Below are positions 6,170 through 55,800 of a DNA stretch of 64,000 nucleotides, one piece after another. Under the pieces are notes generated by a model. It was given only the letters and a program-made list of their open reading frames with translations. It was not told where the DNA came from and did not search any database. Made by a program: the position numbers and the translations under genes. The stretch's first letter is position 1. Each line of letters starts with the position of its first letter. The stretch comes from Tetracentron sinense (Eukaryota > Streptophyta > Magnoliopsida > Trochodendrales > Trochodendraceae), in assembly GCA_015143295.1 (NCBI GenBank), contig CM026571.1, positions 6,157,501 to 6,221,500 on the forward strand, in the 5' to 3' direction.

Positions 6170-7204
6170 TGTTATTTTTTTTTGTTGAAAGAAAGAACAA
6201 ATGTTAGTTTTTAATTGAGAGTAGGGCTTAAAAAAAAAAAAAATTGAGAATAGGGCTAGCACACCAAGCTGTCCTGCCCGAGGAAAGGTGATTGTTCCTT
6301 ACTAGTACCTAGGGGTGGAGCCACATGGGGACAGGGGGCTGAAGCCCCCCTGAAATTTTGAGAAGAAAAATATCTATGATACTTATAGCGGCATAGCCTA
6401 GGAAATGGGCGAACGGGGCTGTAAACCCCCTAAACTTTGAGAAAAATATATTCCTTACAAACCGACACAATGCTCAATTAACTTGACCCTCAAAAAGGAA
6501 ATTTGGGGAATACGCCCGAAACCCCAATTGTTAGCCCCCTGCAAACCTCGCTTCTCCCAACCACTCACTGATCATCATGATAAAAAACCGACCCAATTCA
6601 ACAATCATTGCCATTTGATTTGAATACTTATTCAGACCCTTCCCACCAGCAATGCACACTTAGCTTCTACTTAATCCCTAGAAATTATAAACAAAACCAC
6701 ATGCATTAATAAATTTATGAAGGGTAAATTTGTCAATTTGTGGTACAAAACGTGTAGTCTCACCGGGAAAAATATCAAATGTGAGTATAGTGGATTGCGT
6801 GCGGGAATGTAACTAGGGGGGAATTGGTTAGCAACCGAACCATTCAACCACCGACCCATCTCTCTAAATATCACTTACACGTGTTACATGGAGAGAAATG
6901 TCTACTTCTAGGCATGGGACCACACGAACAAGTGACCTAACATTTATATTGTATTATTGAAATAAATAAAAGAACAATAATCCCTCCACAGCGCGAGGAA
7001 GCGACTAATCCCCCTGCTTTTGAACTATGATTAATTTTTCTCAAAAAAAAACAATAACTATGATTAATAAGTTTTAATTTTTGTGGTTATTTATTTTGTT
7101 TTTTTCCCTTTAAAAATAAGTTTCAATGTTTTAATTAGTTTAGTAAATCTTAACCATAGTTAATAATTAAAAAAGAGAATATGACAAAAAAAACAAAAAA
7201 CAGA
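6170..7204. other. Intergenic repeat debris
   Basis: It contains a pair of related segments (about 6303-6365 and 6405-6440) with GGGGCTG-type palindromic motifs next to AAACTTTGAGAA. Similar sequence recurs near 8700-8770 and 9040-9230, so this is a degraded dispersed repeat. At 7144-7165 is one arm of the TTAACCATAGTTAA core found in the palindrome families described below. No coding sequence is seen. Confidence 0.4.
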
Positions 7205-8634: not shown

Positions 8635-9945
8635 GATAGGACTGTCAATGGGCCGGGCCGGGCCAGGGACCCAATCCCCATAAGCCCATACGTGTGTAGT
8701 ACAGCATGCATTAGTGGAGCCATATGGGGCCAGGGGCTGAAGCCTCCCCTCAACGTTTGGAAAAAAACTGTAATATTAATAAGGGCATAACGTCGGAGCA
8801 CGAGTGGAGCCGGGAGATGGGGACTTTAGTAGAATATGTCCTTCTCATTGGATCATGACACCCTTTTTAACACTCATCAATTATAGTTAAGATTCACTCA
8901 CTCCTAGGTTTTTTTTTTTAATAACTATTAACCTTAATTTTCGTAAGCTTAACCACATAAGGGACACATGGACAAGCCTTTTTACAAAGTCAAATGCATG
9001 GTGGGCTAATCATTGCTCTTACATTAATTAATTTAAGAAGGCATAAGCATAGGGTAAGGGGCAAAGCCATGGCCAAGGGAAGCAATTATCCCCTAACTTT
9101 AAAAATATATATATTATATAAACTTTACAAACAAATGAGATAACCCGCAAACTTACCCTAAAAAAATCAGGGATTATGCTCCCGAACTCCCCACATCCCA
9201 TTGTTAGCCCCCTCATGAAAATCCTGGCTCAACCCTGACTGCATGCCAACAGTGACTGCATACCAATGGTATATAGTAGTACTGCATACCAATTGTCTTG
9301 TCCGACGCTTGTTTAGGGTTACAAAATTACAAAACTTACGGATGAGCCAACCAGTACCAATCATATTTTTTTTTCAATTTTATGCATGATCCGTGCCAAT
9401 CAAATAGTGACATGTAACCACTTAAAGGGTGTTTTTGTTGAAAATATGTAAAAGTAAAGGGTATGATTTGTCTTCGTGTAATTGACGCTGGTGTACCATG
9501 TAGAAAAATTTTCAGCTAGGCCACTCTAGTGCAAATCAATTGTACAAAATTGTATCCCATCTGTACAAAATTGTGTGTGTGTTGCGTATGGTGTGTTTCT
9601 TCTGTTAATCAAAAAAATACATATTATTCAAGAACATATGGTATATTTTTATTGACATGTATGAGCCAAACGTCATATAGAACTAGTTTTTTTTTTTTTT
9701 TTTTAAATCTTTTTCAAGCTAAAGGATTTGGGCTTCATTTATAAGGAGTTTGTGCTCGGATGGTGAGGAGACAATCAGCGACACTTAAGAGGTGCCACAT
9801 ACGCACAAACGGAAAGCCCCACTTACTCATTAACACACACAGACATACAAGGTGTCTCTCAAGTGTATGCTGGCACTCTGCTCACCAACATAGAGGATCC
9901 CTTTGTCTATGCATTGGGATCATAGATAGGCAAATTGCCAAAGAG
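8635..9945. other. Intergenic region with degraded repeats
   Basis: It contains more copies of the GGGGCTGAAGCC-type repeat (about 8700-8770), an isolated palindrome core (TATAGTTAAGATTCACTCAC, about 8883-8902), a T run at 9690-9703 and no supported gene. Short frames here lack domains or splice context. Confidence 0.4.
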
Positions 9946-10264
9946 ATCGAATAACAGTCAATCCCGATTGATCTCGGAAGAGTTCAACCGCACCCACAAC
10001 TAAATACGTGTCCCTGTATTGCCCTATTAACTGTAGTTAAAATTCACTAATCTTAAAGATTCAACAATCTAACTTTTTTTTTGGAAAAACAGTTTTAAAA
10101 TATTAATACTATGGATTAAAAGTTCATAACCAGAGTTAATATTTCTCATAGAAATCAAGGAGAATTTATTGAATCCTTAGAATTAATGAATCTTAACCAT
10201 AATTAATAAGAATTAATAGAGACCCTTGTTGACGCGGGGGTAGGGTTTGAACTCATTGCGAGAT
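9946..10264. mobile_element. Palindromic MITE, family A
   Basis: The left arm begins GATCGAATAACAGTCAATCC and runs through a GAGTTCAACCGCACCC block to the core TAACTGTAGTTAAAATTCAC. The right arm is its approximate reverse complement, ending near GGGTTTGAACTCATTGCGAG. The outer right arm is partly eroded. Other copies of the family follow at 10725-11088 and 11150-11503. Confidence 0.65.
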
Positions 10265-10724: not shown

Positions 10725-11088
10725 GAAATCGAATCACAACCAATTGCGATTGGATTCGGGGAGAGTTCAATTGCACCCGCAAGTCACCATGTGTACCTGT
10801 TAATCCTGATTAACCATAGTTAAGTTTCAATTAACTTTAGGTTTAATAATCTAACTTTGGTTTATAGAAAAAGTATTTAAAAAAATTTTAACTCTAGTTT
10901 AAAATTTGCAACCCTTAGGGTTAGTATTTTTTTAATCTTATTTTCTAAAAAGTAAGGTTAGGTTATTAGACACTAAAGGTTAGTGAATCTTAACCATGGT
11001 TAACTGGGATTTACACGAGCACATGATGACTTGTGGGTGTGATTGAACTCTTTCCGAATCCAATCGCAATTGGCTATGATTCTATATC
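10725..11088. mobile_element. Palindromic MITE, family A (well preserved)
   Basis: The left arm (AATCGAATCACAACCAATTG, then GGGGAGAGTTCAATTGCACC) and the right arm (GTGCGATTGAACTCT-like, then CAATCGCAATTGGCTATGAT) are reverse complements over about 150 bp each. The A/T-rich centre carries the core TTAACCATAGTTAAG and its complement. RNA from this copy would fold into one long hairpin. Confidence 0.75.
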
Positions 11089-11149: not shown

Positions 11150-11503
11150 GAGATCGAATCATAGTCAATCACGATTAAACTCAAAGAAAGTTCAATCGTA
11201 CCCATAGACACTTGTCTTTTTAACCATGGTTAAGATTCACTAAACCTTAGGATTCAACAATCTAATTTTGGTTTTTTCTAAATTCATTTTTAAAAATATT
11301 TAATTCTTAGGGTTAAAACTTCTCAATCCAAAGGTTAATTTTTTTTTTTCTTGGAGGTAAAAACGAATGATAGATTATTGAACCCTAAGGGTTAAAGAAT
11401 TTTAACCTTGATTAATAAGGGTTTAAAAGTACACGAGTTGATCTATGAGTGCGATTGAACTATCCCTGAATTCAATCACGATTGGCTGTGATTCGATCTC
11501 GCT
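11150..11503. mobile_element. Palindromic MITE, family A (well preserved)
   Basis: It opens GAGATCGAATCATAGTCAAT and closes GATTGGCTGTGATTCGATCT, the reverse complement. Core elements TTAACCATGGTTAAGATTCA and AGGGTTCAACAATCTAA type blocks occur in both arms. It lies only 60 bp from the previous copy in a local cluster. Confidence 0.75.
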
Positions 11504-22270: not shown

Positions 22271-22550
22271 TCTTTACTTTTATAAGCGAGAGGCAGGCAT
22301 AGCCAGATTTTTCCTAAATTCCTAAACTTCCCTTATATAAAACAAAATTTTTATTTAATGCTTTACTTTAATTCCCAAACTATCTCTTCTTTAACTATCT
22401 ATTTAAATAATAAAATTATAACCAATTGTAATTGAACTTGGGGAAAGTTCGATCACACTTACAGGTTAGCACGTCTCCTTTTTAACTCCTATTAATTATG
22501 GTTAACTTCTTCCCCTCACTCTCAGGTGCATCACTCGTGCCGCCTGCTGG
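22271..22550 (+). mobile_element. Short non-autonomous Helitron (280 bp)
   Basis: The 5' end TCTTTACTTTTATAAGCGAG is preceded by A, and the 3' end CCGCCTGCTGG is followed by T, as expected for insertion between A and T without duplication. An imperfect hairpin (GGTGCATCACTCGTGCC) lies about 9 bp before the CTGG end. The interior includes a stretch like one half-arm of the family-A palindromes (about 22425-22505). The ends match those of the Helitrons at 27110-27763 and 52760-53825. Confidence 0.8.
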
Positions 22551-23756
22551 TCTATATAATTACTAAACTATCATACAGACATTTTGGTTTGCGGAATCTT
22601 CCAATTGATTACAAAACAGCCCTTTTGTATTAATGAATTATACTGCGTGATATACGGCACGTGCAAACTAAAATTACAAAGGAGTCCAAAATTACAAGGG
22701 GGAGTGGCAATTGCCAATCGCCTTAAATCTGGAGAGTCAAATCATTTTAAAATGTGGAGGCGCTAATAATAGTTTGACTTTTCAGAGAAGCATGGTTGTA
22801 GCGATTGGGGAAGCATTTCCCTTTTCCAAATGTTACAATATAATTTTTTTTTGGATGGCAAAAAAAATGTCATTAAAAAGAAAAAATTAAGAAAATAATG
22901 AAAACAAAACCCCCATTTTTTTCTTCATTTAAATGGACACAGTGAAGAAAGAGAGAAGAGCTTTCAAATTATCTTCTTAGCAGTGACAGTATCTCATCAT
23001 GTTCTAGACAATTGTGGGATGGCTATTAACGGATACTTTTGTGGAGAATAATCTCTCTCTCTCTCTCTCTCTGAACAGGCGGCGACGAACACCTGCAAAT
23101 CTTTCTGTTTCCTTAGATTCATAGCATGGAGCTTTCACTGACTATCTCTATATATTAAAGAAAGACGACGAATAGATGTTTCTCTCTTCTCCAATATCTT
23201 CTAACGCTTCCTTCGGCGAAATCACGCAACAAATTCCATTTCCCCCAGTTTCATTAGCACCCAATGGGAACTCCAGAAGCGATTTTCTATACCTGAGGAA
23301 AAACACGAAGGATTGAAGGGGTCTAGGATTTTAGAAACTCGAAAAAAACCCCTAAACCCAGAAGTCATTTTTGTAGAAGAAAACGTTAGATTATTTGTCT
23401 GTTTCGAAGTCGGTACCCTTAGAAGTAAGATCTCTGAAATGATTTATTCTGAGCTTTCGCAGCTGGTCTACTCTTTTGGGGTAATAAAGTTCTGATTCGA
23501 AAGAGATAATGTCCTGTGGTGACCAGTTGAGATCGCACAAGACTGCCTGTATAGTCGCGCGCTAGTAAGACGAGATGAGATCTTTGCATCTTTACGGATT
23601 ATCATCTGTGGGAAAATCGTAGAGAGAGATCCAGCGGAGCTCGTTCTCCTGTAAGAGTCTGCCCTTGAAAAAAGTCATTATTTTTTTATTATTTTTGTCC
23701 AAAGCTTAAGACTCGTAATCATCTCCGGTTGTAACGGACTCATGGGGGGGGGGGGG
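22551..23756. other. Intergenic region with a leader-like (CT)n stretch
   Basis: A (CT)n run at about 23051-23072 is followed by sequence resembling a plant 5' leader. It includes a 46-codon frame (23176-23316, MFLSSPISSNASFGEITQQI...) with no homology that I recognise, and GT-rich possible donors. It may be a gene start cut off by transposons or a non-coding transcript. A G run lies at 23743-23754. Confidence 0.3.
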
Positions 23757-24046
23757 ATTCCGGTTACGCATTGACGCTGCCACGTGTTCCTTTTGATGTC
23801 CTTTAACTGTGGTTAAGATTCACCTACCCTAGTGTCCACCCACTTATCCTTGGTTTTAAGAAAAAAAATTTTAAAAAAAATTAACCTTGAGAGTTAGTGA
23901 TTTTTAACCGGGGTTAAATTTCTTTTTAAACATTTTTTCTAAAAACCAAGGACATGTAGATCAACCTAGGAGTAGGTGAACCTTAACCACAGTTAAGAGA
24001 TGTCAAAAGGGATATGTGGAAGCGTCGGTGGCATAACCAGACTCTC
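23757..24046. mobile_element. Palindromic MITE, family C
   Basis: The left arm GGTTACGCATTGACGC, then TTAACTGTGGTTAAGATTCA and CCACCCACTTATCCTTGGTT, is mirrored by the right arm AACCAAGGACATGTAGATCA, then CCTTAACCACAGTTAAGA and GCATAACC. The core is shared with family A, but the outer arms differ (no CAATCGTGATTG block). Confidence 0.7.
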
Positions 24047-24157
24047 CCGAGTCTGGTTACAACGGGAGAGAATCACAAGTTAAACTTAATGCTTGACACC
24101 ATTTGGATTTTCAATCCAACGGTCAACGCTCTCTAATTATAACGGGACTCCAAAGTG

Positions 24158-24440
24158 TATAGTTATGCCACTGAGATTGCCATGTGTCCATTTTGACACC
24201 CCTTAACTGTAGTTAAGATTCACTCACCCTTAAGATTCACCCACATATCTTTGGTTTTTGAGAAAATATCTTAATTTTATTAAACCCATGAAAAAATTCT
24301 CTAACTCTTAGTTTTTTTAAAAAAATAATATTTTTTTAAAAAAACTAAGGATAGGTGGGTGAACTCTAAGAGTAGGTGAATCTTAACCACAGTTAAGGTG
24401 TGTCATAAGGAACACATGGCGATCTTAGTGGCATAACGGA
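24158..24440. mobile_element. Palindromic MITE, family C
   Basis: It opens near TTATGCCACTGAGATTGCCA and closes CACATGGCGATCTTAGTGGC, reverse complements. The inner blocks match the copy at 23757-24046, about 110 bp away. Confidence 0.72.
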
Positions 24441-24484
24441 CTTCCGATTAAAACTTGAGAGAATTTCAAGTCTTATTCAGTATA

Positions 24485-24674
24485 CGAAGATCGAATCATA
24501 GCCAATTGGGATTGAAATGAGGGAGACTTCAATTGCACCCACATGTCAACACGTGTCCTTTTAAACCATTATTAACTGTGGTTAAAATTCCCTAATCATT
24601 AGGGTTCAACAATCTAACTTTAGATTTTAGAAAAAATATTTGTTAAAAATTAACCTTAGGTTAGGAAAAAATAA
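24485..24674. mobile_element. Left half of a family-A palindrome, cut by a Mutator-like element
   Basis: It begins GATCGAATCATAGCCAATTG and runs through GTCAACACGTGTCCTTTTAA to the core ACTGTGGTTAAAATTC, then stops where the element at 24675 starts. The right half is not found after that element, so it was lost or never present. Confidence 0.6.
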
Positions 24675-26016
24675 GGGTGGTGTTAGATGCACACCAATAT
24701 TTGATAACTGCACCTCATAAGTAAAAAATATTGATCGCATACCATGAAATTAATAAAATTACTTGTATACACCAAAAAAAAAAACTACTATAAATTTTAT
24801 ATCTAGACACCATTTACAATTGTTAGAGAATTTATGATTGAGATACAGCTCATCAACCAACTCTGTATAGGCTTGGAGATTTGAAATTTTAAATATGTCC
24901 GTTCTATGGCAGCAGCAAAACTAAAACACTGCTCTCTTTCAATAGTCCAAAGACCAAGTTGATTTTTTGTGACAATTAAATAAATAGTGTTTTGTCACCA
25001 GAGGGGTGCCTATAATGTCTCCTATGCATTCATGCAAATGCAACCCACTTGATGCTTGGAAAGGAAATCTCCATAAATCTTATTGTATTTCAAATTTATT
25101 TTAAATGGAAAGAATCAATTCTGTCATCTTCCACCACCTGACCATGAGAAAGTCCAGATTCCTTGAGAAAAGAAAACCTCAATTTCTGGTTAACTAGCTC
25201 GATCTCAACTATTTTCACCATTTCATCACTTCAAAGCTTCAACCAAAGTACTACTCTCCTAGAATTATAAAAGTTTGGTTGCAAGATCATAGGCATTTGA
25301 CTTCTCTTCGGCCACATGGATCATACTGCCTCATCCACAACAAGCTAACTAGGACCAATCATGCGACTCAATGTAACCTTGGCTCAACCCATCTGGTCAA
25401 TCTGTTGAGATATATTAAAATACTCTGTTTGGTAAGAACTCATGTCAAGTCGCATTATATTCAAACCGGTCGAGAAATGCAGAGACGATGTGTTGCTATT
25501 AGATTTGTTTGATTCATATGGTGTCGTAGCTGTTGTCAAAGGGGATTTGCGGATTTGGAAGAAACCCATCAAAAGTTCCGACACATCCGGGACCAAAAGA
25601 TGCAAACTTTTATTGGTAGTGATGAAGAACTAGTCCTTGATTGGTTTCATCTCCGAAAGTGGTACATGGGGTGCAAGAAGAAGCACCCCTGTGGATCAGC
25701 CTGTGAGAGCTTGATCCTTCCTTGAACGAGGAAGCTTATCTGGAGCAACAGCAACAGATGCACGTATCATGCCATTAACTTCAATGGAGCTACACCCAGG
25801 TGCCTTTTGCACATTGCTCTCCTTCATCAATTCTCTCAAGATCATGGCAACATCCTATGCTCTCGAAAATGGAGGAAGAACCGAGAGAGAACGAGGAAGG
25901 AGAACTCCCACCAAAATCAATTGAGATGGGGTGAGTCTATAAAGTTTGGTGAAAACTAAATATATTAATAAAAAAACTTAATGGGGGGTGCGGTCATCAT
26001 TTTTTGGGGTGCGCTT
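24675..26016 (-). mobile_element. Mutator-like element carrying a host gene fragment (Pack-MULE type)
   Basis: The left terminus GGGTGGTGTTAGATGCACAC and the complement of the right terminus GGGTGGTGCTAAGCGCACCC match over about 45 bp. Flanks AAAATAA (24668-24674) and GAAAATAA (26017-26024) are compatible with an eroded 8-9 bp target duplication. The 1.34-kb interior has no transposase. Instead, the minus strand contains a piece of a pentatricopeptide-repeat gene (25696-25854). hAT is the alternative superfamily. The long terminal inverted repeats and captured coding DNA favour Mutator. Confidence 0.65.
25696..25854 (-). pseudogene. Captured fragment of a PPR gene (E-motif region)
   Basis: The complement reads DVAMILRELMKESNVQKAPG followed by CSSIEVNGMIRA. 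This matches the E motif at the end of plant PLS-class PPR proteins (...LRxLMKExGVxKxPGCSSIEVNG...), which act in organelle RNA editing. A stop lies immediately before the fragment and another 30 codons after the motif, so nothing functional is encoded. It lies wholly inside the Mutator-like element. Confidence 0.75.
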
Positions 26017-26137
26017 AGCACCACCCGAAAATAAATCCAACTTATTAATTTTTGTATGATGAACAAAATAGTTATTAGATATGCTTTGAAGGCAGGCAAA
26101 GGGAAGGGGTGCAAATGGATTCGCTCTCTGTATCATA

Positions 26138-26450
26138 TATAAGATCGAACAGAGCCAAGTGCAATTGAACTTTGGAAGAGTTCAATTGCAACCATAGGGC
26201 AACTTTTGTCCTTTTAAACCCCTATTAAATGTGGTGAAGATTCCTTAACCCTTAGGGTTCAACAATCTAACCATAGTTCTTAGAAATTATTTTTTTGAAA
26301 AAATAATACCCTAGGGTTAGAATTTTAAATGTCTGAGACCTCAAAAATATGCCTTTAAGTTATCTCATTATTTTCCAACATATCAACATCTTAGAGGCTT
26401 TAGATCAAAATCTAATTCCTGTTAATCAAGATTTAAGAAGCGTGTGACAA
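26138..26450. mobile_element. Palindromic MITE, family A (eroded right arm)
   Basis: It starts AGATCGAACAGAGCCAAGTG, then GAAGAGTTCAATTGCAACCA and CCTTAGGGTTCAACAATCTA. The right arm is recognisable only as TTCCTGTTAATCAAGATTTA and AGAAGCGTGTGAC. Confidence 0.5.
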
Positions 26451-27066
26451 TAGCCTTAGTTGGGGTCCATTTGCATACCTACAATATCCACGAGGAATAG
26501 GGTGGAGCCAGGAATTTTCCTTGGAGAAGCCTAAATACATATATCCAAAACAAAATTAATAAGCGTTTTCTGTGGAAAATTATCAAATGTGCACAAAATA
26601 TTATGGGCCTTGGAATTTGGGGACGTAGCCACCAAGGTTTTTTTTTTTAGCAATGGATTTCTTGTGGTCATAAAATTCGTTAAGGATGCATTCTGATAAA
26701 GATCTAATACACAAAGCCATAAGGAGCTATTTTATAAATAAAATTAACTATATTTTTTAATTTTATATTAAACATATAAAAAAATTACACAACTTTGAGG
26801 GTCAAACTTCCTACATAAATAACAATCACAACCTAATTTGAAGTGCACTATATGCAAAAATTAAATATATGTTTTTTTTTAATTACACCTATTTCAAAAG
26901 AGTGGAATTTGGCAGCAATGATCTTTATAGCCTAAAGCTATAAAAAAAAAAAAATCAATTAACTGCTAACGTCATAAAAAGTGTTAAATATATACTCTTT
27001 CAAAAATGAAAAGTCAAATTTACTTCTCTTTTTTTAAAGAAAATTTAAAACATTATATCTAGCATC

Positions 27067-27070
<4 letters not shown>

Positions 27071-27109
<39 letters not shown>
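27071..27109. repeat. (AT)n microsatellite
   Basis: About 19 AT units directly abut the 3' terminus of the Helitron at 27110, consistent with Helitrons inserting at AT dinucleotides. Confidence 0.95.
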
Positions 27110-27110
<1 letters not shown>

Positions 27111-27763
27111 TAGCGGGTGACACATGCGATGCACGTGAGAGCGAGGGGAAGGAGTTAACGACACCCGATTGAATTCGCTAGCGGCATGTGCAATGCATGT
27201 GAGAGCGAGGGGAAGGAGTTAACCACAATTAATAGGAATTAAAAGGGGCACGTACCCACGGGTGTGATTGAACTCTCCCCGAGGTCAATCAATTGGCTGT
27301 GATTCTAAATAGATAGATGCCAAGGGGTAGTTTAGGAATTAAAGTAAAACTTTAAATCAAAGGCAATGGTAGTTTGGGAATTAAAGTAAAATATTAAATC
27401 AATGTTTTGTTTTTATATAAGGGTAATTTGGGAATTTCAAAAAATTCATCTACACATGCCTCTCGTATTATAATAGTAAAGAAGGGGAAGGAGTTAACCA
27501 CAGTGAATAGGAATTAAAAGGAGCACGTGTTAACCCACGGTTGTGATTGAACTCTCCTAGAGGTCAATCGTGATTGGCTGTGATTCTAAATAGATAGATG
27601 CCAAGGGGTAGTTTAGGAATTAAAGTAAAACATTAAATCAAATGCAAGGATAGTTTGGGAATTAAAGTAAAACATTAAATCAATGTTTTGTTTTTATATA
27701 AGAATAATTTGCGAATTTTGAAAAAATCATCTACGCATGCCTCTTGCATTATAATAGTAAAGA
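27110..27763 (-). mobile_element. Non-autonomous Helitron with duplicated termini
   Basis: On the minus strand it starts TCTTTACTATTATAATGCAA (27763, preceded by A) and ends ...CACCCGCTAG (27110, followed by T). A hairpin CACGTGC-ATC-GCATGTG lies about 8 bp before the CTAG. A second 5'-type end lies inside at 27482 and a second hairpin-CTAG end at 27178. Two direct copies of a unit of about 270-280 bp fill 27213-27482 and 27483-27763. Each copy includes half of a family-A arm (TGATTGAACTCTCC, GGCTGTGATTCTAAATAG). No helicase is encoded. Confidence 0.8.
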
Positions 27764-28329
27764 TTTTTTTGTTGGATCTTTCATATACGTTAAAGTGACA
27801 TCTTTTTAGATATATGACATTTTTCATATATATGTTAAAGTTTCACTCTATACTTAATATCATTGTTAATCATATTCTGTTGTGCAGGTGCCCTTTTAAA
27901 TCTATATTTATACTTTATTAGTTTATAGTAAAAAGGTTTAAATTGTCCATCAAATAACTTTTTTCTTAATATCTCTCCCATTAACTTCACTTATATCCTC
28001 TCCCATTTTTTACTTTTCTAAAATTTAAAAAAAAAAAACGTGTGTAATAGTGTAGCTCCGGGTATATTCTAATATACCCTTTTCTTAAATTTAATGTTAC
28101 ATGGTAGCAATTGTGTAATTCTTTTGGAAAGGAAAGGAATTTTACCAAGTTACTCAAATAGTTACAAACAACATTTATTTACCCTAAAAATGTCATCCCT
28201 AGTGAAAACTTGGCAACATGCTACAAAAGAACAATAGCTTGTTGATCTCACATCCACTATCCTTCATCTCGGCTATTCAAGGAATTCTCTTCCTGGTTCC
28301 AGCCTGACCTTGAGCATTCAAACCCTGTC

Positions 28330-28850
28330 AATGAAAACCACCAATCCAAGGGTGGATCAAGATAACTGCCCGACGGGGCGGCTCTCACTAGCGGCATAGC
28401 AGCCAGAGCAGGGATCATAGCACGTAGTTCCCAAGGTGAAATCCTTTGCAGTCTCACATAGCTTTATTGGGCCGTTCTGCAAGGTTAGCTGAAGCCGAAG
28501 CCATTCGGGCGAGTGTGCAAGTGCCAGGCACTTTCTCGCTTATGGCCCCAAATGGTGATCGAGTCTTACTCTAAAGAGGTCAATGGTGTTTTAAATGGGA
28601 CTCTGTGCAATACCACTCAGAACTCTACCCTATTCTGGAGGACATCCAGTTTCTAATGCGAGACAGTGGCACAATCATCTTCAAACATGTCAATCTCTCC
28701 GCCAAATCTATGGCTCATGGCCTTGCTCAACAAGTCTTAGTCGTCCCGTATCCTCATGGATTACAGCCCAAGCCCGAACAGGGCCAAGTTCTTCCTCTGT
28801 TCAGCAATGAAGTTAGCCTTTTACCAAAAAATATTTTTGAAGGATTTTAA
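28330..28850 (+). mobile_element. LINE fragment: RNase H domain
   Basis: Broken plus-strand frames read GAALTSGIAARAGIIARSSQ (about 28375-28435), then a part with AEAEAIRASV, then ILEDIQFLMRDSGTIIF and KHVNLSAKSMAHGLAQ (28630-28730). These are the successive landmarks of the plant-LINE type RNase H domain (DGA...G.GIIARDS.G, AEA.A, and the C-terminal H.....N..AH.LA). The frames are interrupted and no reverse transcriptase is nearby, so this is an old truncated copy. Confidence 0.65.
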
Positions 28851-30718
28851 ATAACAAAAATTAGATGTAACATTTTTATAATAAAATTGTACATATCTCA
28901 CACTCCGGGCTACAAAGAATATTATTGAAAAGTTTTACTATGTTAAAAATGAGAGCTTTGCTTTGTTTTTAGAGCCTCGATTCATATTCAAATATAAAAG
29001 AAAAGTAAAAAACCAAATCTTAACCATCTTTAATAAGAGTTAAAAGAGACACGTGTTGATCTGCAGTGCGATTGAACTCACCCCGAGTTCAATCGCGATC
29101 GGCTGTGATTCGATCTCAGACTCAGGTACTGGCTCGAATACACCATGGATGGTTTCCACATTAGAGCCCGCCTTCATGGACAAGCTGGTGGCTCACATTG
29201 CTAAGAACTTCAAAACTCTGCCGAATGTCAAGGTAATCAACTTCATTCATCCCATGCATATCACCTAGAGCAATGCTAGGTCCACTTTCGGCAGAGTTAA
29301 TCCTCTAGTTTAGTTAGTATGGGCTTTCTTAGCCCAAATAGTTTCATTTTTTCTTCGGCTTTGTTCGATCTGAGGGAAAAATACAGTGGGATGTAGATTC
29401 CTCAAAAATCCCATTTTTCCACACAGTTTGGTCAGGATTAGATAGTGATGTTTTGCCTCTATTATCACTAGAGGAAATTACCATGACTGATGACTCTGTT
29501 TATGGTATAGCTGTTAATCTCAAACTACTCTACTCTTAATATATCAATCTCAAACTACTCTTCTTAATACATCAATTCTACTGCAAAACATGATGAACAA
29601 CTAGTAATATATCCGTCGGCTTGACAAAAAAATGATCACTAATTTTAATGTTAACCTTCAATCTCTTGGAGGATTTGATGTTCATATTGAAGTATAAAAG
29701 AAGAGATCAATAGAGGAAAAAGATAAACATGTAGTAAAATAGAATTTTCCCATTATCTCTTGTAGTATGGTTGCAGTCTTGAAATTAAGCTGCAAAGCTG
29801 CTCTATTTTACTTCTTAGACATGAAAATATATGAACATTCCTGGCCTTCTTCCACCTCAATTGGGGTATCCTGATGAGTCGAATTTTTTATTGCACTGCA
29901 TTGGATCCATGAGTCATGACCCAAGATATACCATGCTTTCGTATAGAAGCATGATTTCATTCATCGATGATGTAAGGTAACTAACTACCTACCATCATCG
30001 TCCCCTTGTTATTAAGGGGGAATGGATGGGCTGCCACCTCACCAAAAAAAGCTATCACCCAAGTACATGATGATATTTTACCACGTCTTGGTACCCACAT
30101 TCTATTGCAAAGGCTGCTGAGACTGCTAGTCTGCTACCCTTCTTCCGACCATATCAATATGGATTTTGTTGGTCTCACTTTTTTTTTTTCTGTTTTTTGA
30201 CAAGAAAACTAAGACTTTATGGTGCGGCATATCAGACCTTCTTACACAAAATCTTTGACTTCTTACCCGATAAAAGGGGAGTGAAATAGGAGGAGAGTGG
30301 AGCTAGTGCTCCCCTTATCAATATTGTGTGACAATCCAAAAGAATACATTGGATCACTTGGGACCCATGTTGCATCATGCAGCATCATATTGCCCGACTG
30401 CTAATCTAGGAGTGGTAGATCGTACTTAGTATCTACCAATTCTGGTTGGTAGACCGTACTTAATATCTACCAAATTTGTACTTAGTATCAAGGAAGAGAC
30501 ACCTTTTGGAGTTCCTACGACAAAAGTTGAGACGTTATTATTGAGACACGATACTGATAGAGAATAAAATATTAAGGAAATAAATGTAACTTATAGCTTA
30601 TCTCATCTTACGTTTATACTTTTAATACTCCATTCTCTATCGTATCATATATTAGGTCATAAAAAAAACCTTGTGAGCCGCCTTTAAGTAAGGTTGTCAG
30701 TAGATTCGGCTGGCCTAT
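28851..30718. other. Intergenic region
   Basis: The right half of a family-A palindrome lies at about 29028-29118 (GTGCGATTGAACTCACCCCG, GGCTGTGATTCGATCTCA). A frame just after it (SGTGSNTPWMVSTLEPAFMD) ends at a possible donor (AAGGTAATC), but I recognise no family. The remainder has poly-T and AT-rich sequence without features. Confidence 0.35.
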
Positions 30719-31085
30719 TGTCATGCCCGTTTCTTTAGTCTCACATCAGTCATGTATTTGGTAGTCATGTATTTGGTGTTGCTAGACCATTGATGTGGGA
30801 GTAAGGAATATTAAAAGTGACTAAACATTTTAGTTGGCAAGAGCTCCCTGACACATGGCATCAGAGTCAACCCAAAGACATCAGGGGTTGAGATGGAATA
30901 ATAGCACGTGGGATTCAAAGGATGAATCCTCTTAGCAAGAGCACTAGGAATTTAGGCTTATGAGTCTATCACGTGCTTATGTTTAATTCCATACTAGCCA
31001 TGTTCGGGCATTGTTGGACTATTGGTGTGGAAGTAGGCAGCATCTAAAGTGCCTAATCATTTTGGTTGGAAAGCGCTTAGTGACT
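30719..31085 (+). mobile_element. TRIM-like LTR element fossil
   Basis: Two diverged repeats of about 120-135 bp (30719-30853, starting TGTCATG and ending TGACA, and about 30965-31085) flank an interior of about 110 bp. Directly after the first repeat lies TGGCATCAGAGTC (30856-30868), close to the methionine-tRNA primer site TGGTATCAGAGC. A purine-rich GCTTATGAG precedes the second. Size, primer site and lack of coding place it with TRIMs. The strong difference between the two LTRs makes it much older than the element at 2570-5682. A related solo LTR is at 39406-39525. Confidence 0.7.
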
Positions 31086-31439
31086 TTATGCCTGACTAGG
31101 CCGATTAATAAATGGGTTGGGCCAACCCATTTTTTTATTAGATTGAGTCAGGCTCTTGCTAAACCCACCTAAGAAAATAAAAGGAAAAAAATGCTTGTTA
31201 TAGAATTTTTAAATAAATTAGCATTGTGATCTAGTCAAGTCCGATTAGAAATATACTAAATTAGCCTCGACCTAAGATACTAAATACAAATCCACCCAAC
31301 TATTTAACCAGATCGGGCCAAACTTAAATTTGTTTGTAGTCCCAAGCCAGCCCATTAACATTCCTAGCTTTAAGTAATGGAAAATAGTTAACGTACCCGG
31401 GTTCCCATTTTGTAACGGAATGACCCCAATTTTAAAAAC

Positions 31440-31600
31440 TCACATACTGTGGTTAAGATTCACTCACCCCTAGGGTTAAGCAATCCAACCTTGGTTTTGC
31501 GAAAATAAAAAATATAAAAAATCTTAGTTTTAATTTTGTTAAGTTTAAAGGGGTGTTAAAAGGGATATGAGGACACGGGGTGAGATAGGAAACGGACCCA
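31440..31600. mobile_element. Diverged palindrome fragment with the A/C core
   Basis: CATACTGTGGTTAAGATTCA followed by CCTAGGGTTAAGCAATCCAA and a TTGGTTTT block match the left arms of families A and C. The right arm survives only as GGGGTGTTAAAAGGGATATG. Confidence 0.5.
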
Positions 31601-31639
31601 TGGGTCCGCAAAGCAGTGCTCTTAAGTAATTCATAGTAG

Positions 31640-32153
31640 TAGGGCTGTCAATGGACCGGATCATGATCCGGATCCGATCCGAATCCGATCCGATTAGCCG
31701 GACTTTGGACCTTATATGTGATCCGTCGGATCGAATTCGGATCGGATCGGTGGAATCCGATTATAATCGGATCGGATCTGGATATAGGGTGATCCGATCC
31801 GATTAAAATCCGATCCGATAATAATAATATTTTTTAATTATTTTAAATATATTATTTAGATTTTTTATGTATAAAATATTAATTTTTTAAAAAATTAACA
31901 TTAATTAGTATTAATTAAGGAATTATTAGATTTTTTATTATTAAAATAGATTTTTTTTAAAAAAAATAACCTTACTCGGATCGGATTGGATTGGATTGGA
32001 TTCGGATCGGACGATATATAATCGGATCGGATTCGGATCGGTTACTTCATGATCCGACGGATCTCGGATCGGATTCGAATCAGTCGGATTCTTAATCGGA
32101 TCGGATTCGGATCTAGGCAGATCCGGTCCAAATCCGATCCGTTGACAGCCCTA
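31640..32153. mobile_element. Non-autonomous hAT element (MITE) with perfect 8-bp target duplication
   Basis: TAGGGCTGTCAATGGACCGG at the left pairs with the complement of the right end (TAGGGCTGTCAACGGATCGG). CATAGTAG flanks both sides (31632-31639 and 32154-32161). The interior is built from repeated GGATCGGATT/AATCCGATCC units around an AT-rich centre. Terminal TAGGG and 8-bp duplication are diagnostic of hAT. Confidence 0.9.
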
Positions 32154-32493
32154 CATAGTAGGGATAAGTATTGTTTAGTGACCCTAAGTAAAAAAGATCA
32201 CCTGAAAGGGCATGATTTGAAAAGTTTTACCAAATAGGGTATATATCCCAATATTACCCTTACTAGTAGGGTTTTATATGTATTACTAAGGGATAAATAT
32301 GTCAAAAGCATATCATTTTTGGTCATAAAAATGCAAAGCATGCACTCTTTGGTGAAGTGCCTTTATTAGTATTACTTGTTTCGATATCCAAGAAAAATAA
32401 CCTGCTTTAATGTTTTTGTTTTCGGTGAAATGTTATAATGTAATTATAACACACAATGTTCAAACTTCAAAGGTTTTTGTCATGGTACCTCAT

Positions 32494-32772
32494 TGGAGAG
32501 ATCGGATCACAGCCAATCGTGATTGGACTTGAGGAGAGTTCAATCACATTAATATGTGGTTTCTCTGTTAATTCCTATTAACCGTAGTTAAGATTTACTT
32601 AACCCTTAGGATTCGATATTCTAACCTTAGTTCTTAGAAAAAAATATTTAACTCTGGTTCTTCCTGTGTTTTTATATTTTTTTTCTAAAAACTAATGTTA
32701 GATTATTGAACTCTTAGAGTTGCTGAATCTTAACCACAGTTAATAGGGATTAAGAGGGACACGTGTTGACTT
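32494..32772. mobile_element. Palindromic MITE, family A (right end truncated)
   Basis: The left arm GAGATCGGATCACAGCCAAT and inner blocks AACCGTAGTTAAGATTTAC / TTAACCACAGTTAATAGGG pair. The right arm stops after GACACGTGTTGACTTCGAG, without its CAATCG...GATC end. Confidence 0.65.
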
Positions 32773-32799
32773 CGAGAGATCAATGTTAAATAATTTAGC

Positions 32800-32905
32800 C
32801 TTAAAGTTAAAGTATCTTAACCACAATTAAAGGGACCCTTGTTGCATTATGGGTGCGATTGATCTCTCCCAGTTCAATCGCAATTGGCTGTGATCCCAAC
32901 TCACG
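32800..32905. mobile_element. Right half-arm of a family-A palindrome
   Basis: It reads TATCTTAACCACAATTAAAG, then GTGCGATTGATCTCTCC and CAATCGCAATTGGCTGTGAT, with no left arm. It lies 18 bp from the next copy. Confidence 0.6.
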
Positions 32906-32922
32906 GAGAGATACTTAAATAG

Positions 32923-33246
32923 GAGATTGAATCACAGCCAATCGTGATTGAGTTAAGGGACAGTTCAGGTCCCTTGATATTCAATCATCTAACCTTAGTG
33001 ACCAAAAAAAAATAAAAAATCTAACCTTACTATTTTTGAAAGAGTATTTACAAAATATTTAACTCTGGTTAAGATTTTTAACTCTTAGGGTTAATATTTT
33101 TTTCAAAAAAACTAAGGTTAGATTATTGACCACTAAGGGTTAAAAAATCTTAACCATGGTTAAAAGGGGTTAAAGGGGACACGTGTTGACCTATGGGATC
33201 GATTGAACTCTCCCTGAATTCAATCGTGGACTGTGATTCATTCTCT
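32923..33246. mobile_element. Palindromic MITE, family A, just upstream of the TMEM8-like gene
   Basis: The left arm GAGATTGAATCACAGCCAAT and the right arm ending GGACTGTGATTCATTCTC pair, with central blocks AACCTTAC...AAGGTTAGATTATTG. The right arm contains GACACGTGTTGACC (33179-33192), which combines a CACGTG G-box with a TTGACC W-box-like site about 300 bp before the gene's ATG. Confidence 0.72.
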
Positions 33247-33491
33247 TAAATAGGCGGAGACTCCTGCGACGACCTCTGTTGGTAGAATTCTGTCGAACCC
33301 CCTGCACAGAGTCCTAACACTACGGGGAGAGTTTCGATACATCTGAATTAGGAAAGAGAAACTTCTATAAATCGAGAGAGAGAGAGAGAGACGTGTTTGC
33401 TTCTACCAATAATTATTTTCTTAAAAGCATTCATCTACAAATATACACATATATTCTAAGAACCTCTTTTAATTACTCTGTGAAGAGAATC

Positions 33492-49800: not shown

Positions 49801-52800
49801 CTTTCTTCAGAACTCAAGTCTTAAGCAAACTAAGAGTTTCAGATCAAGGGATTACCTTAAAGGAAAGGTGCGGCAACCTCCATTCCAAACTTTGAAACAT
49901 TGTTAAATCTCAAAATCTATTCTCCTTCAAATTTTGGCAATCAAGAACTCTTGATGATTTGTAGTGAAATCTCACAATCACAACATTCAATAACTAATTT
50001 CAGCAATTAGCAGCTATCAACCAAAAAAACAAGAGACTCAGTCTCATTAATTTCAAAAAAAAATCCATTCAACTCTAGCTAACAAAATGATACAGCTACT
50101 TCTATATATAGAGAGCCAAAAGATCTTTTAGAATCATATTTTAACTCAAATTTAGAAACAAAATCCTTTAAAAAGACTCTTATTCTCTTAACTAATTTAG
50201 AGAATATTCTACTTCTAAAAACAAAGAGATCATCTACCACAAATAAAAGACTGATAATTAAAATAAATTTCTAAGGACTCATCTAGAATTTACTATTTAT
50301 AGTAATTCCGAAAATTACTATTTTTAGTGAAAATGAAGGACTCTTAACTAGAACCCCTAATTAAAACAAAAACTAATTAATGGGCTGACTTTTGACTCTT
50401 GACTTATGCCTAAAGTAACATGTTCCAAATTAAAAAGAAGAGGATAGCCCATGTTGTATGGCCCTAAGCTATTGGGTCTAGATATTGCCCATAATAAAAT
50501 TTGTAATTTCCTAGGCTTCTTAATACGATTCAGTTCCCCCATCACAATGGCTACATAAGGCAAGTTGAGGGATAAAGTTAGTGGTTGGCATGTGTGGAAT
50601 CCAGGTATTTCATCCAAAACATTTTTCTTCATATGGAATGCATCTTTGAATAAGATTCTTACTTGTGATTACTTAAAGAATAGATGGTGTAGGATGACTA
50701 ATTGCTATTTTTTGTGCCTTCAAGCGGAAGAGACGATGGATCATTTGCTCTTGCACTGCCCTATTATGGGTGTGATCTGGGGTTATTTTCTATCCTGAGT
50801 AAGTGTGGATTGGGTCTTCTATTCTTCATTTCACAACTTCTTATCCTGTTGGGTCCTTGGTAAGTGTGAATCATAGTTCAAAAACTAAAAAAGTCGACAT
50901 GAAAAATAGCCTGATCGATTAACTCAGAAAACTTGAAAAAACTCGACTCGGTCTAACTTGGAATATATATATATATATATATAAATATGATGGGTGTGAT
51001 CTGGGGATATTTTCTATCCGGAGTAGGGGTGAATTAAGTCTTTCCTTCGTCCTTTCACAGCTTCTTATCCTGCTGGGTTTTGGTTAGTGAAAATAACAAG
51101 CTAAAGGCAGTTTGGGCGGTCCTTCCTGGGGCCATCACGTGGGTCATTTGGAAAGAGCGAAACAAAAGAGTTTTCGAGAACTCTCATTCTTCTGTACATC
51201 GCATTTGCACTCGCATACGCTTATTGGTCTTAGAATGGGCAAGAATTCGACAGGAGGAAGCGAATCTGAGAGTCATCCTGGGTTCACAGTATGCCTCCCT
51301 CAATACAAATGGCTTTTATGCTGCGATTTTGATACCTGCTTATTATGTATTCTTTTGTCTCATCCTGGGTTTACAACCTTGTAAACTCTTTCTTTGTAGT
51401 TCTCTTTGTTTTAAATATGGTTGACCTTACCGATCAAAAAAAAAACTGTTGGTTAAAATGTCCAAATTACGACCAATAAAGTTTAATTTTAAACTTGAGT
51501 TGAACCAAAATCTCCACCGATATATGCCAAAAATTTTATATTTTGCGAAAGATTGTAAAACATTCTGCAAAAAAAAGTGTAATAAAACATATTACATCGG
51601 GGGGATATTTCCCATGGGTGAGGAAAAGATTATATTTCGGCAGAAATTTAAAACAATGCCATTGGCTTCTAGTTTGCAAGTCATGTTTCCTTCTTTAGCC
51701 CATAATACAAGTGGCTGACAGTGAAACCAGTCCACTTGGTTGTGTTCACAACCATTATATGACTAAAAAGAATTTAAAGAAAGATCAACTTAGAGTTGCT
51801 TAATATGCTAGCTATACGGCACTACGAAACAGAATAAGGAGATGATAAAACAGGTAAAGTTAGAAGAAACAAAGAGTTAAAACTCAAAAGCAGAGTCAAA
51901 CTATATAAAAGATTCAAATCCAACAACATAGACCCATTTATTACTGGTCCTAGGTTCTGGCTCTTGGCTTGAACAGGGCCGACCCTGATCTGTTAAATAC
52001 ATGGGAGGGTCTAGGTGTGTCAATGGGTACCTGATTTTCCCAATTACCTAAGCTTACTCAACTCTGATTACTAGGGTATGGATCCAAGAATTGAACATGA
52101 TAACGACTAAGACCCGATTAGGCTATGCTATCTGGTACCTGTCGACTATAAAGCTTTGCAAAAGAACTTTAAGATTTCAAGGATTAAGAGTTATTTTTTT
52201 CCTTTGATTTTCTTATTGCTTGTCTATTGTAATTTTCAAGTTTTGGTGCTTTTTTTATTTATTTTATACAGTCGGGTATTTGGTACCCGATATTTTGATG
52301 GGTTGGGAGTAGAATCGTTTGTTTCACATCCAACCCATGGTATGGGGCATGGATACAGCTGGCCCGAACCCGACCCATTGACACTCCTATAAGGGTCTGG
52401 TCCATTCCAAAATAAATGCAACCAGATCCTAACTCAGGCCAGGTTGGTTAATACCAAGTTATTTGATACTATATTATTAGGTTTTGCACTTGTATATAGA
52501 TTAAGAGAACATTTATGCTTCTTAGATGTTTTCCTAAATAAGTTTGAGCCAAGAACAGATTCAAACTATATTAGTGAAGAAATCATGGTCGTTATACTTT
52601 TTACTTTTTGAATTTAAAAAAGATAATGAGTATCTCTCCCTTGGAAGAAGGAAATCTAAGAAGAAAATGCAATTTTTACTTTTTGAATTGAAAAAAGATA
52701 ATAAGTATCTCTCCCTAGGAAGAAGGAAATCTAAGAAGAAAATGCAAGAGTATAATATATCTTTACTAATATAAAGAGGATGCCCCATGTTCAAAATGTT

Positions 52801-55800
52801 GATGGAATCTCTTGTAATTCCAAAATTACCCTTGCTCTTATCTCATCTTCTTCTCTTTCTTATCTTATATAATGAGCCCTTGAAAACATAGATGAAAATT
52901 TGCAAAATTCCCAACTACCTTATCATAATCATTGTATAAGACAAACACTTAATTGAATGTTTGCTTGATTCCCATACTACCTCTCACTCATCTCTCTATT
53001 AGGCTGGAAATACTCTACGGTTATAACCAGACTCCTTGGAGTCAGGTTACGTCATTGAGGTCGCCATGTGTCCCTTTTAACACTCTTTAACTATGGTTAA
53101 GATTCATCCACCCCTAAGGTTCACCCACTTATCATTGGATTTTAGAAAAAAATATGAAAAAAGAGTAAACAAAAATTAAATTTTTTTCTAAAAACCAAGG
53201 ATAGGTGGGTAAACTCTAGGTGTGGATGAATCTTAACCACAGTTAAGAGGTGTCAAAAGAGACATAGCAACCTCAAGGGCGTAACGAGACTCCGACTGTG
53301 GTTAAGATTCACTGACCCCTAGGGTTCACCCACTCATTCTTGGTTTTTAGAAAAAAAATATATTAATTTCTTTTGAACCTTGGTTAAAATTCACTGACTC
53401 CTAGGATTAATTTTTTTTTTTCATATTTTTCTAAAAACCAAGGATAAGTGGGTGAACCCTAGGGGTGGGTGAATCTTAATCGCAGTTAAGTAGTGTTAAA
53501 AGAGACACATGGCGACCTAAGTGGCGTAATTGGACTCCTCAATCTCTTGGCAAAATGCTCCGAAAGAAAAACGTCTCACCAAGGTCCCGCCTGCCCCCTT
53601 TCTTTGCTATACCCAAAATGTCTCTAAAGCTTTTTGGTTCTTAAAATGTCCCAACATCATATTTCAATAAGCAACGTCTTTCACAATTTTTTTATTCCAA
53701 AATGTCCCTCAAGTTTCTATACCCAAAATATTCTTTTTTTTTCCCGAAATGCCCTCCTAGTGTCCCTCTTCCGAGCCTCTCTCCCCTTCCTTTCTCCCAC
53801 GTGCATCGCACGTGCCACCCACCAGTTAATATATGTGTTTTCTTATTTCTTTTGGCATGTTGGTTTCTTATTTTTGGACAGTGTCATGCTTGTTTAAGTA
53901 GGTTTTAAATGGATCCGACATGGACCAATTACAACCCAGCCCAGATCCAACCATTGTCGAGTCTGGATCCCCTTGGACTAGAACCAGCCCATCCCATGAA
54001 TGGGTCTTTTCGTATAGATTAAAAAAACGGCGCAGATCTGATAATTTATGATCTGCTTCACTACATATAATCCAGGCCCATTTATTAAAATGGTCAGATC
54101 TGGTTCAAGCTGTACCCACCTGGACCTGGACATTTATGGTCTTATTTTGAGTATTCTTTGAAGTTTGGTCTCAGAAAACAGTTTTGGTCGCAGGTTCTGG
54201 AATGCCATCTGGTTACGGATCCTCGCACAAAGGAATCTCGTGGATTCGGATTTGTGACAATGGAAACCGTTGAAGATGCAGACCGCTGTATCAAATATCT
54301 AAACCGTTCGGTGCTTGAAGGTCGATTAATCACAGTGGCGAAGGTATTAATTTCTCTCAGATGGATGTTAATAATTACTGTATACCTAGATTGACTAGTG
54401 ACTAGTTTCATATGTAAGTTTTTTTTTCTTCACTCTGCTCAGATTCAGAAATGTGGCCTGATAACTTTTGGCAGCAGCTCTGGTGTGTGTAGCTCCATCA
54501 AATTCACAATCTAAAACAGTTGAACCTTCCCCATCACGACATGAGCTCTGCCATCGGCATCCCCTTCTCATCAATTCAAATTTGACTTTTTTTGCAGAGG
54601 GTTGTATGCCCTATATTCCTTTTCTTGATAAATAGCATCAGCATGGTTGTTTTATTTGTTTTCTAACTAAAATTTGGAAAAAAATCCAGAGAAGTAGTAA
54701 ACATGTCTTGATGCATTGATTTTTCTGTCTTCTTTGAGTCTTCAATATACTGCTTGGTCCAATCATGGTGGATATCTTACTTATTGAAAATCAAGGGAGG
54801 GATCTCTCTGCTTTCAGTACAATTGCCAACATATGCATTATTTTCAAAGATGGCGGGAGTGATCCTTCGAAATGATGACAATAACCTTGAATTTGTTTAG
54901 ATCCTCCCCTTATATGGGTTATTATCATCATTCTAGAGGACATTCACACCCTTTTTCTTTCTGAAATTCGAAGCAATTTCAGTTAAACAGCAATGTGAGG
55001 AGGCTCTGTAATTCGTTTCATTTCAGTAAGTTGGTGCATTGTCTACTGTACGAAAGATAAAGCAGCTGATGCTATTGAATCAACTGCAATAAGGGCTCAG
55101 TTTTGTTATGTAAATAAATAAATAAAAAACATGCTATTTGATGTCATCCTGCATTATGTATATATGCAGGCAAAAAGGAAGCGAGGGAGGACACCAACTC
55201 CAGGCAGATACCATGGTCTAAAAGACAGAAGAGGTACATACGAGCCAAGTAACAAAAAACGGTGTTTTTTTCAAAAATTCGCGAATTTTTGGGTTGCTGA
55301 AGCATTCGGCATTTAAATCGTGTTTTTATTTATTTTTATTTTTAAAAGCCGTTTTTACAAAATTATTCACGTTTTTTTTACGAATTATTCCCGAACTTTC
55401 CGAATTATTCAAAAAAATTACTTTTTTTGTATATATTTTAATCAAATTGTTCCGTATATTTTTATAATTATTAATTTACTTTTTATTTTTTTTCTGAATT
55501 TTTCCCGAATTTTTCTGAACTTGATCCCTGCCGAATTATTCCCGAACCTCGACTTTGTCACTATGCATACGAGAATCACTCATGGCTGTGTGTATATGGA
55601 AAATGTGTTAAGGATGCATATGATCTAGGCTGGGGTCAGACCATGTCTGGCCTAAAGCCTGATGGGGGTAGACTCAAGCCGGGGTTTGGTGTCATGAACC
55701 AAACCACATGGCATGGGCCGATCTGCAGATGCAAGCCTGGGCCAGATATCGCCAATGGCAACATCATTAATTCTGGGTGTATATGAGCTAGTCTGGGTCA

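Follow-up and report, generated by a model that had tools for sequence, protein, structure and literature searches.

A foldback MITE arm in the interior of an abundant Helitron family of Tetracentron sinense

When one and the same sequence is found in two kinds of transposable element, in which of them did it originate? This question is raised by a stretch of 64,000 nucleotides from the genome of Tetracentron sinense (contig CM026571.1, positions 6,157,501 to 6,221,500; G000:C21:6157501-6221500 in our numbering), termed the window throughout, in which the outer arm of a short palindromic element, family A, recurs inside two small Helitrons that are referred to here as family 1. The first-pass annotation of this DNA had offered two answers, namely that the palindromes arose from Helitron DNA or that Helitrons captured the palindromes. 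Using the window and searches of the genome (1.16 Gb in 1,479 contigs, with individual loci designated by L numbers), we argue that family A is an independent miniature inverted-repeat transposable element (MITE), that one such element was acquired by a Helitron lineage and lost except for one arm, and that this arm was then multiplied as part of a Helitron chimera, a reading to which we give a probability of roughly 85%.

The shared sequence is a block of ~95 bp just before the 3' tail of both window Helitrons, and its homologue is the outer arm of family A. In the Helitron at 22271-22550 (plus strand) it occupies 22411-22505 (plus), with CTATCTATTTAAATAA as its left flank and CTTCTTCCCC as its right flank. 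In the tandem Helitron at 27110-27763 (minus strand) it occurs twice, at 27219-27307 (minus) in the unit that adjoins the 3' end and at 27494-27588 (minus) in the upstream unit, which has no 3' hairpin. All three copies were located with the basic local alignment search tool (BLAST), and within the window 27110-27763 matches family-A arms at 29020-29111 (E = 5e-13), 32506-32591 (E = 7e-11) and 33150-33239 (E = 7e-11). The closest pair of MITE arm and Helitron block among the aligned rows has 94.6% identity, and because of this pair and the E values chance similarity of block and arm is excluded. The matches bear out the earlier observation that part of the family-A arm lies just before the 3' hairpin of both Helitrons, and the limits given there for the two Helitrons are correct to the base. 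The accompanying claim that a full family-A element is this block joined head to head holds in part: the block is indeed the outer ~95 nt of the arm, but the full element adds a few terminal bases outside the block, as well as an inner arm and a centre that are absent from family-1 Helitrons.

Family A is an independent, non-autonomous, Mutator-type foldback MITE. Full elements among the copies tested for target duplications are mostly 320-350 bp in length, with an inner arm (GATTCACTAACCCTTAGGGTTCAACAATCTAACC...) and a centre beyond the ~95-nt block; copies start with GAGATCGAATCACAGCC and finish with its reverse complement, with some variation, and the exact 22-nt terminus has 856 matches in the genome and none in the control. 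The terminal inverted repeats are long and the elements short and, judged from this length, probably non-coding. Target duplications were scored over 9 bp at the family-A ends with 3 bases of slack per side, and the control joined left and right flanks taken from different elements. At least 8/9 bases agree in 10/29 copies and at least 7/9 in 14/29, compared with 1.2% and 4.8% of 812 cross-paired controls, in a set from which 6 of 30 loci were left out first (five being the same elements from the other strand, and L012 a near-copy of L011) and in which L001 is the window copy at 32498 and is counted twice, L006 and L008 are seemingly one locus on two contigs, and L005, L007, L009 and L016 have common flanks. 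Whether full palindromes outside Helitrons carry target duplications was a question raised by the earlier annotation, and a good part of the copies tested do. Four duplications are a perfect 9/9, those of L002 (TTGTGTATG), L020 (GGCCTAGCA), L030 (AGGTGGATA) and the window copy at 32923-33245 (CTTAAATAG). A duplication of 9 bp is the hallmark of Mutator elements and is what is expected of them.

In the window, the single strand of 32907-33252, which spans the copy just named, folds at z -7.9. Its neighbour at 32498-32902 is a long copy with no clear target duplication (6/9). Three further copies, the starts of which were taken from BLAST and re-read bases, lie at 10725-11088 (8/9; TCCACTCCT/CCCACTCCT), 11150-11500 (8/9; GCTAACGAA/GCTAACAAA) and 9943-10254 (7/9, with an uncertain right edge). 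Single arms of the MITE type were recognised from BLAST and their flanks at 24488-24641 (plus), outside any Helitron, at 26142-26306 (plus; row M_L031_438p) and at 29015-29117 (minus), the last with the MITE terminus GAGATCGAATCACAG.

The carriers of the block are Helitrons by structure. Both window members of family 1, as well as the family-2 element at 52760-53825, have TC at the 5' end and CTRR, diverged in the family-2 copy, at the 3' end, and insertion between A and T without target duplication is indicated by the flanking bases. To the base, the first family-1 copy runs on the plus strand from 22271 to 22550 (A/TC...CTGG/T) and the second on the minus strand from 27763 to 27110 (A/TC...CTAG/T). 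The former starts with TCTTTACTTTTATAAG and finishes with CCGCCTGCTGG before the T, belongs to the form in which the left border has additional bases, and was delimited from its sequence and from an alignment with 30 genome loci, drawn from the 40 best-scored matches, in which minus-strand loci were left unturned. The latter, delimited from sequence, BLAST and alignment, is a tandem of two body units (27483-27763 and 27208-27482, with 90% identity over 281 bp by BLAST within the window), after which two 3'-end units follow, and the hairpin CACGTGC-ATC-GCATGTG lies at 27121-27137. The upstream unit of this array passes directly into the next 5' end, and head-to-tail arrays were also seen at L045/L052 and L057. 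The family-1 consensus, preceded by A and followed by T, reads TCTTTACTATTATAATGCGAGAGGCATG... CATCTATCTATTTA (AAGAATA) GAATCACAGCC ... TTAACTGTGGTTAA CTCCTTCCCCTCGCTCTCACGTGCATCGCACGTGCCACCCGCTAG, the form with the bracketed AAGAATA being the one found in the other loci. Helitron 3' hairpins are placed 10-12 nt before the end, and the folded consensus (rather than the 27110-27763 copy) has a 7-bp stem 11 nt before the end, at z -3.8. The base after the 3' end is T in 56/56 cases, some of them loci chosen with T in the pattern, and in 25/25 cases among loci chosen otherwise. The exact 3'-end pattern has 1,699 genome matches (reversed control 0), and a typical element in the 3'-end sample described below is ~265-420 bp long. 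The Helitron_like_N search gave 151 matches, with 150 of 298 candidates scored. None of the listed RepHel matches on contig C1, which were considered as a possible autonomous partner with these ends, is followed within 20 kb downstream by any of the 100 3' ends that were listed first.

Some family-1 loci depart from this plan. At L069/L070 and at L088 two Helitrons stand 5' to 5' with a 3' hairpin facing outward at each end. A palindromic Helitron class built on these head-to-head pairs was considered and dropped, as the junctions are unlike between loci and nested insertion is enough to account for them; the pairs are thus likely to be nested insertions. At L075 and L090 (~380 bp upstream of the 3' end) the 5' half of the Helitron is an inverted duplication, forming a long hairpin, that is directly joined to the MITE arm, and that both loci have this form suggests that it was amplified.

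Two lines of evidence bear on the borders of the block. The first is a sample of exact Helitron 3' ends, 30 in number and taken in positional order from the start of C1, which is independent of similarity to the block and comprises exact matches to one tail pattern only. The block is present in 28/30, the exceptions being L077 (5' and tail pieces only) and L085 (another family), and in 26 of the 28 block-bearing loci 42-47 nt separate a block from the 3' end. Seven of those 26 (L062, L063, L064, L067, L076, L086 and L089) have the partial block of a doubled tail at this place and the full block one unit upstream. L078 has an extra tail unit, L081 a short duplication, and L069 and L070 mark opposite ends of a single locus. 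Doubled tails are seen elsewhere in family 1 as well (e.g. L032, L041, L062 and L076): a pseudo-end such as CCACTAGC is followed by a further 3' unit that combines part of the block with the tail, and this part is ~60 nt in L062 and L076 and shorter in L032 and L041.

The second line of evidence comes from the flanks. A total of 154 blocks and arms were sorted by right flank into 72 of Helitron type and 82 of MITE type, so that constancy of the right border is partly given by construction; the left flank and the 3'-end sample are evidence independent of this sorting. The Helitron left flank is present in 66/72 Helitron-type rows and 0/82 MITE-type rows, and the MITE terminus on the left in 67/82 MITE-type rows and 1/72 Helitron-type rows, in a table from which duplicates were removed only for loci with entered coordinates and in which near-copies (e.g. 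L040 and L051) stay. In the whole genome the Helitron-type right junction was found at 6,190 sites with at most one mismatch (reversed-pattern control 0), doubled tails being counted twice. The continuous arm was found at 23,340 sites, a figure that pools A and A2 arms, including those within Helitron family 2, and is not a count of MITEs. The Helitron left junction, with 0-8 nt of slack, was found at 2,270 sites (control 0), and the 100 that were listed take two forms only: in 55 of them GAATCACAG comes straight after CTATTTA, and in 45 there are 7 nt between. In the 7-nt form the border falls near the expected position of the MITE terminus, the bases there being too diverged to prove that a terminus is present. 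The two forms are most simply read as the traces that one acquisition and one later 7-nt change would have left. Across Helitrons, both the 3'-end sample and the junction searches thus give constant borders for the shared block, and not borders that differ in every Helitron.

A second Helitron family has the same 3' tail without the block. The sampled locus L085 has a 3' tail as in family 1 and no family-A block, and its last 230 bp have at least 40 genome matches, itself included, among 40 candidates scored. The window contains a complete copy of Helitron family 2 at 52760-53825 (plus; 5' TCTTTACTAATATAAAGAGGATGCC, 3' CACGTGCATCGCACGTGCCACCCACCAG before T), which ends in CCAG, a diverged form of the CTAG in which its relatives end. 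This copy carries two A2 palindromes, head to tail, at approximately 53036-53538. Seven aligned family-2 copies and the window copy contain only 16-43 nt of the inner end of the block, the part common to A and A2, and no full block. Three family-2 copies are readable to the 5' end (TCTCTACTAATATAAAGAGG or near); they measure 1,236, 1,070 and 1,321 bp and contain two or more A2 palindromes each. Palindromes of one superfamily are therefore present in both Helitron families, which have their 3' tail in common. Two more A2 palindromes of the window, at 23756-24048 and 24162-24437, have no adjoining match to the ends of Helitron family 1 or 2.

The direction of transfer, from MITE to Helitron, is fairly clear. 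Where the Helitron sequence has its junction, the MITE continues without a break as an inner arm, and the A2 palindromes of the window have this inner arm too; because it is common to A2, the continuous state seen in the MITE is the older one and the Helitron junction derived. Diversity points the same way. Mean identity is 88.2% between Helitron blocks, 78.1% between MITE arms and 78.3% between the two, the first group including L031-L060, which were chosen as best matches to one Helitron copy and so lower its diversity; with only the 32 Helitron rows from 3'-end loci the values are nearly unchanged (87.6%, 78.1% and 79.3%). In a tree of 150 rows and 97 columns, from which four of the 154 rows were dropped for having fewer than 80 nt, there are 3 changes between Helitron and MITE labels compared with a shuffled mean of 50. 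Taken by itself this tree gives the event no direction, since it is poorly resolved and has five MITE arms in the Helitron cluster, and the structural argument from the inner arm is the stronger. Of the two proposals in the first-pass annotation, capture by Helitrons is thus the one that is supported, by the 9-bp duplications of family A itself, by its termini and inner arm outside the block, by the constant Helitron junctions and by the less diverse, clustered Helitron blocks. An origin of the palindromes from Helitron DNA finds no support, as borders, target duplications and diversity speak otherwise.

In the order of events that we infer, a non-autonomous Helitron family would have had an ancestor in which a family-A element came to lie just upstream of the 3' tail, through its own insertion or through pick-up in the course of rolling-circle replication. 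Of this element only the outer ~95 nt of one arm would have survived, with the outer end of that arm facing 5' and the junction GTTAA/CTCC at its 3' border, and Helitron transposition would then have multiplied the chimera to thousands of sites. Our estimate of roughly 85% rests on the constant borders, the target duplications of the MITE, the block-free Helitron family with the same tail and the lower diversity of the Helitron copies. Several results weigh against it. As many as 19/29 family-A copies fall below 8/9 in the target-duplication test, at least four of them through a misplaced right edge (L001, L011, L018 and L022). The five MITE arms within the Helitron cluster, weakly supported as this placement is, belong here too, in a tree in which 72/137 forks are open. 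Exact-pattern searches of the genome gave 0 matches for a family-1 Helitron with both flanks but no block, and 0 for a Helitron with the other (right) MITE arm adjoining the tail. The base that precedes the 5' TC is A in 52/63 Helitrons, T in 8 and G in 3. Finally, an autonomous partner would show as facing termini 1-20 kb apart, and there is no such pair among the 100 family-A termini listed of the 856 (on C1 and part of C2); the nearest listed facing pairs beyond MITE size are 24, 27 and 38 kb apart, and none of the best 150 matches to Mutator-like elements (MULEs) on C1 lies within 20 kb of the listed termini.

A variant of this scheme, and no alternative to it, is that the block was acquired during rolling-circle transposition, through read-through or template switching beside a MITE, and not by insertion of the MITE. 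Excerpts of work on the Helitron Helraiser document read-through past the 3' end and the creation of new 3' ends (PMC4778049), and the block does adjoin the 3' tail. A left border near the MITE terminus is simply explained by insertion, however, and since the tail is common to a block-free family the block is internal and not beside a new end; we regard this route as possible, with the odds somewhat against it. It could also be asked whether selection maintains the block because the Helitron 3' region needs it, for instance as an auxiliary hairpin (TTAACTGTGGTTAA). It is present in 28/30 sampled 3' ends, where it adjoins the terminator hairpin, and its identity is 87.5% compared with 84.9% for the 5' part (22 of 27 loci with both parts), but this gap is small, depends on the alignment and is too small for a claim of constraint; moreover, Helitron family 2 has this tail and lacks the block, and common descent suffices for its presence. 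Such a requirement seems improbable to us and, as block and 5' part are nearly equally conserved, a passenger role would be the default. That the palindromes instead formed from two Helitron 3' regions that were joined and then moved as MITEs is highly improbable, for in its favour are the sequence in common, the five weakly placed MITE arms and the existence of inverted Helitron structures (the 5'-5' neighbours L069/L070 and L088, and the inverted 5' duplication of L075/L090), and against it stand the sequence that MITE arms have on both sides of the block and family-1 Helitrons lack, the inner arm common to A2 palindromes, the termini and 9-bp target duplications that family A has of its own, and the greater diversity of MITE arms than of Helitron blocks.

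How does the acquisition of a MITE arm by Helitrons compare with known systems? Helitrons with foreign fragments are well known, and the present case is unusual in its large scale, not in its kind. As described in excerpts of the respective papers, maize HelA (PMC3288121) and HelibatN of Myotis (PMC4778049) resemble family 1 in their TC...CTRR ends, A/T insertion, 3' hairpin, co-amplified foreign fragment and multiple 3' termini, and for maize Helitrons the multiple termini are described together with stepwise capture (PMC3288121). Unlike in HelA and HelibatN, the passenger in family 1 is a MITE arm and not a gene fragment, the junctions number in the thousands and the element is only ~265-420 bp. 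DINE-1/HINE elements (Helentrons) are likewise short, very abundant, non-autonomous rolling-circle elements, which according to the excerpt drawn on have been taken for MITEs by some authors (PMC4067079); in contrast to them, family 1 has canonical Helitron ends and A/T sites, and it owes its inverted-repeat sequence to a distinct MITE. Family A is in turn like other Mutator-superfamily MITEs of plants in being short and non-coding with terminal inverted repeats, and differs from them in being palindromic over nearly the whole element; Mutator MITEs, one of them of 358 bp, are named in apricot in the part of the source used (PMC12595863). Searches of the open full-text literature, and excerpts such as these, brought up no account of a high-copy Helitron that has a MITE arm as its constant interior.

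These findings trace, in sequence, the history of a high-copy chimera in which part of one transposon lies within another, and they answer the direction question with a move from MITE to Helitron as the most likely course. For repeat annotation this matters because the family-A MITE and the family-1 Helitron could be fused into one "family". The system is also a natural test case for a possible preference of Helitrons for palindromes as sequence to take up. It may even be that Helitron interiors have drawn on foldback MITEs repeatedly, families 1 (one A arm) and 2 (at least two A2 palindromes) each having taken them in. Rolling-circle replication perhaps stalls or ends at palindromes, which would thus be trapped near Helitron ends, with the chimeras becoming abundant thereafter; we consider this broader idea rather unlikely.

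At 31640-32155 the window has one further repeat, of ~500 bp, that is rich in GGATCGGAT/ATCCGATCC in both orientations and that, by eye, is unrelated to family A.

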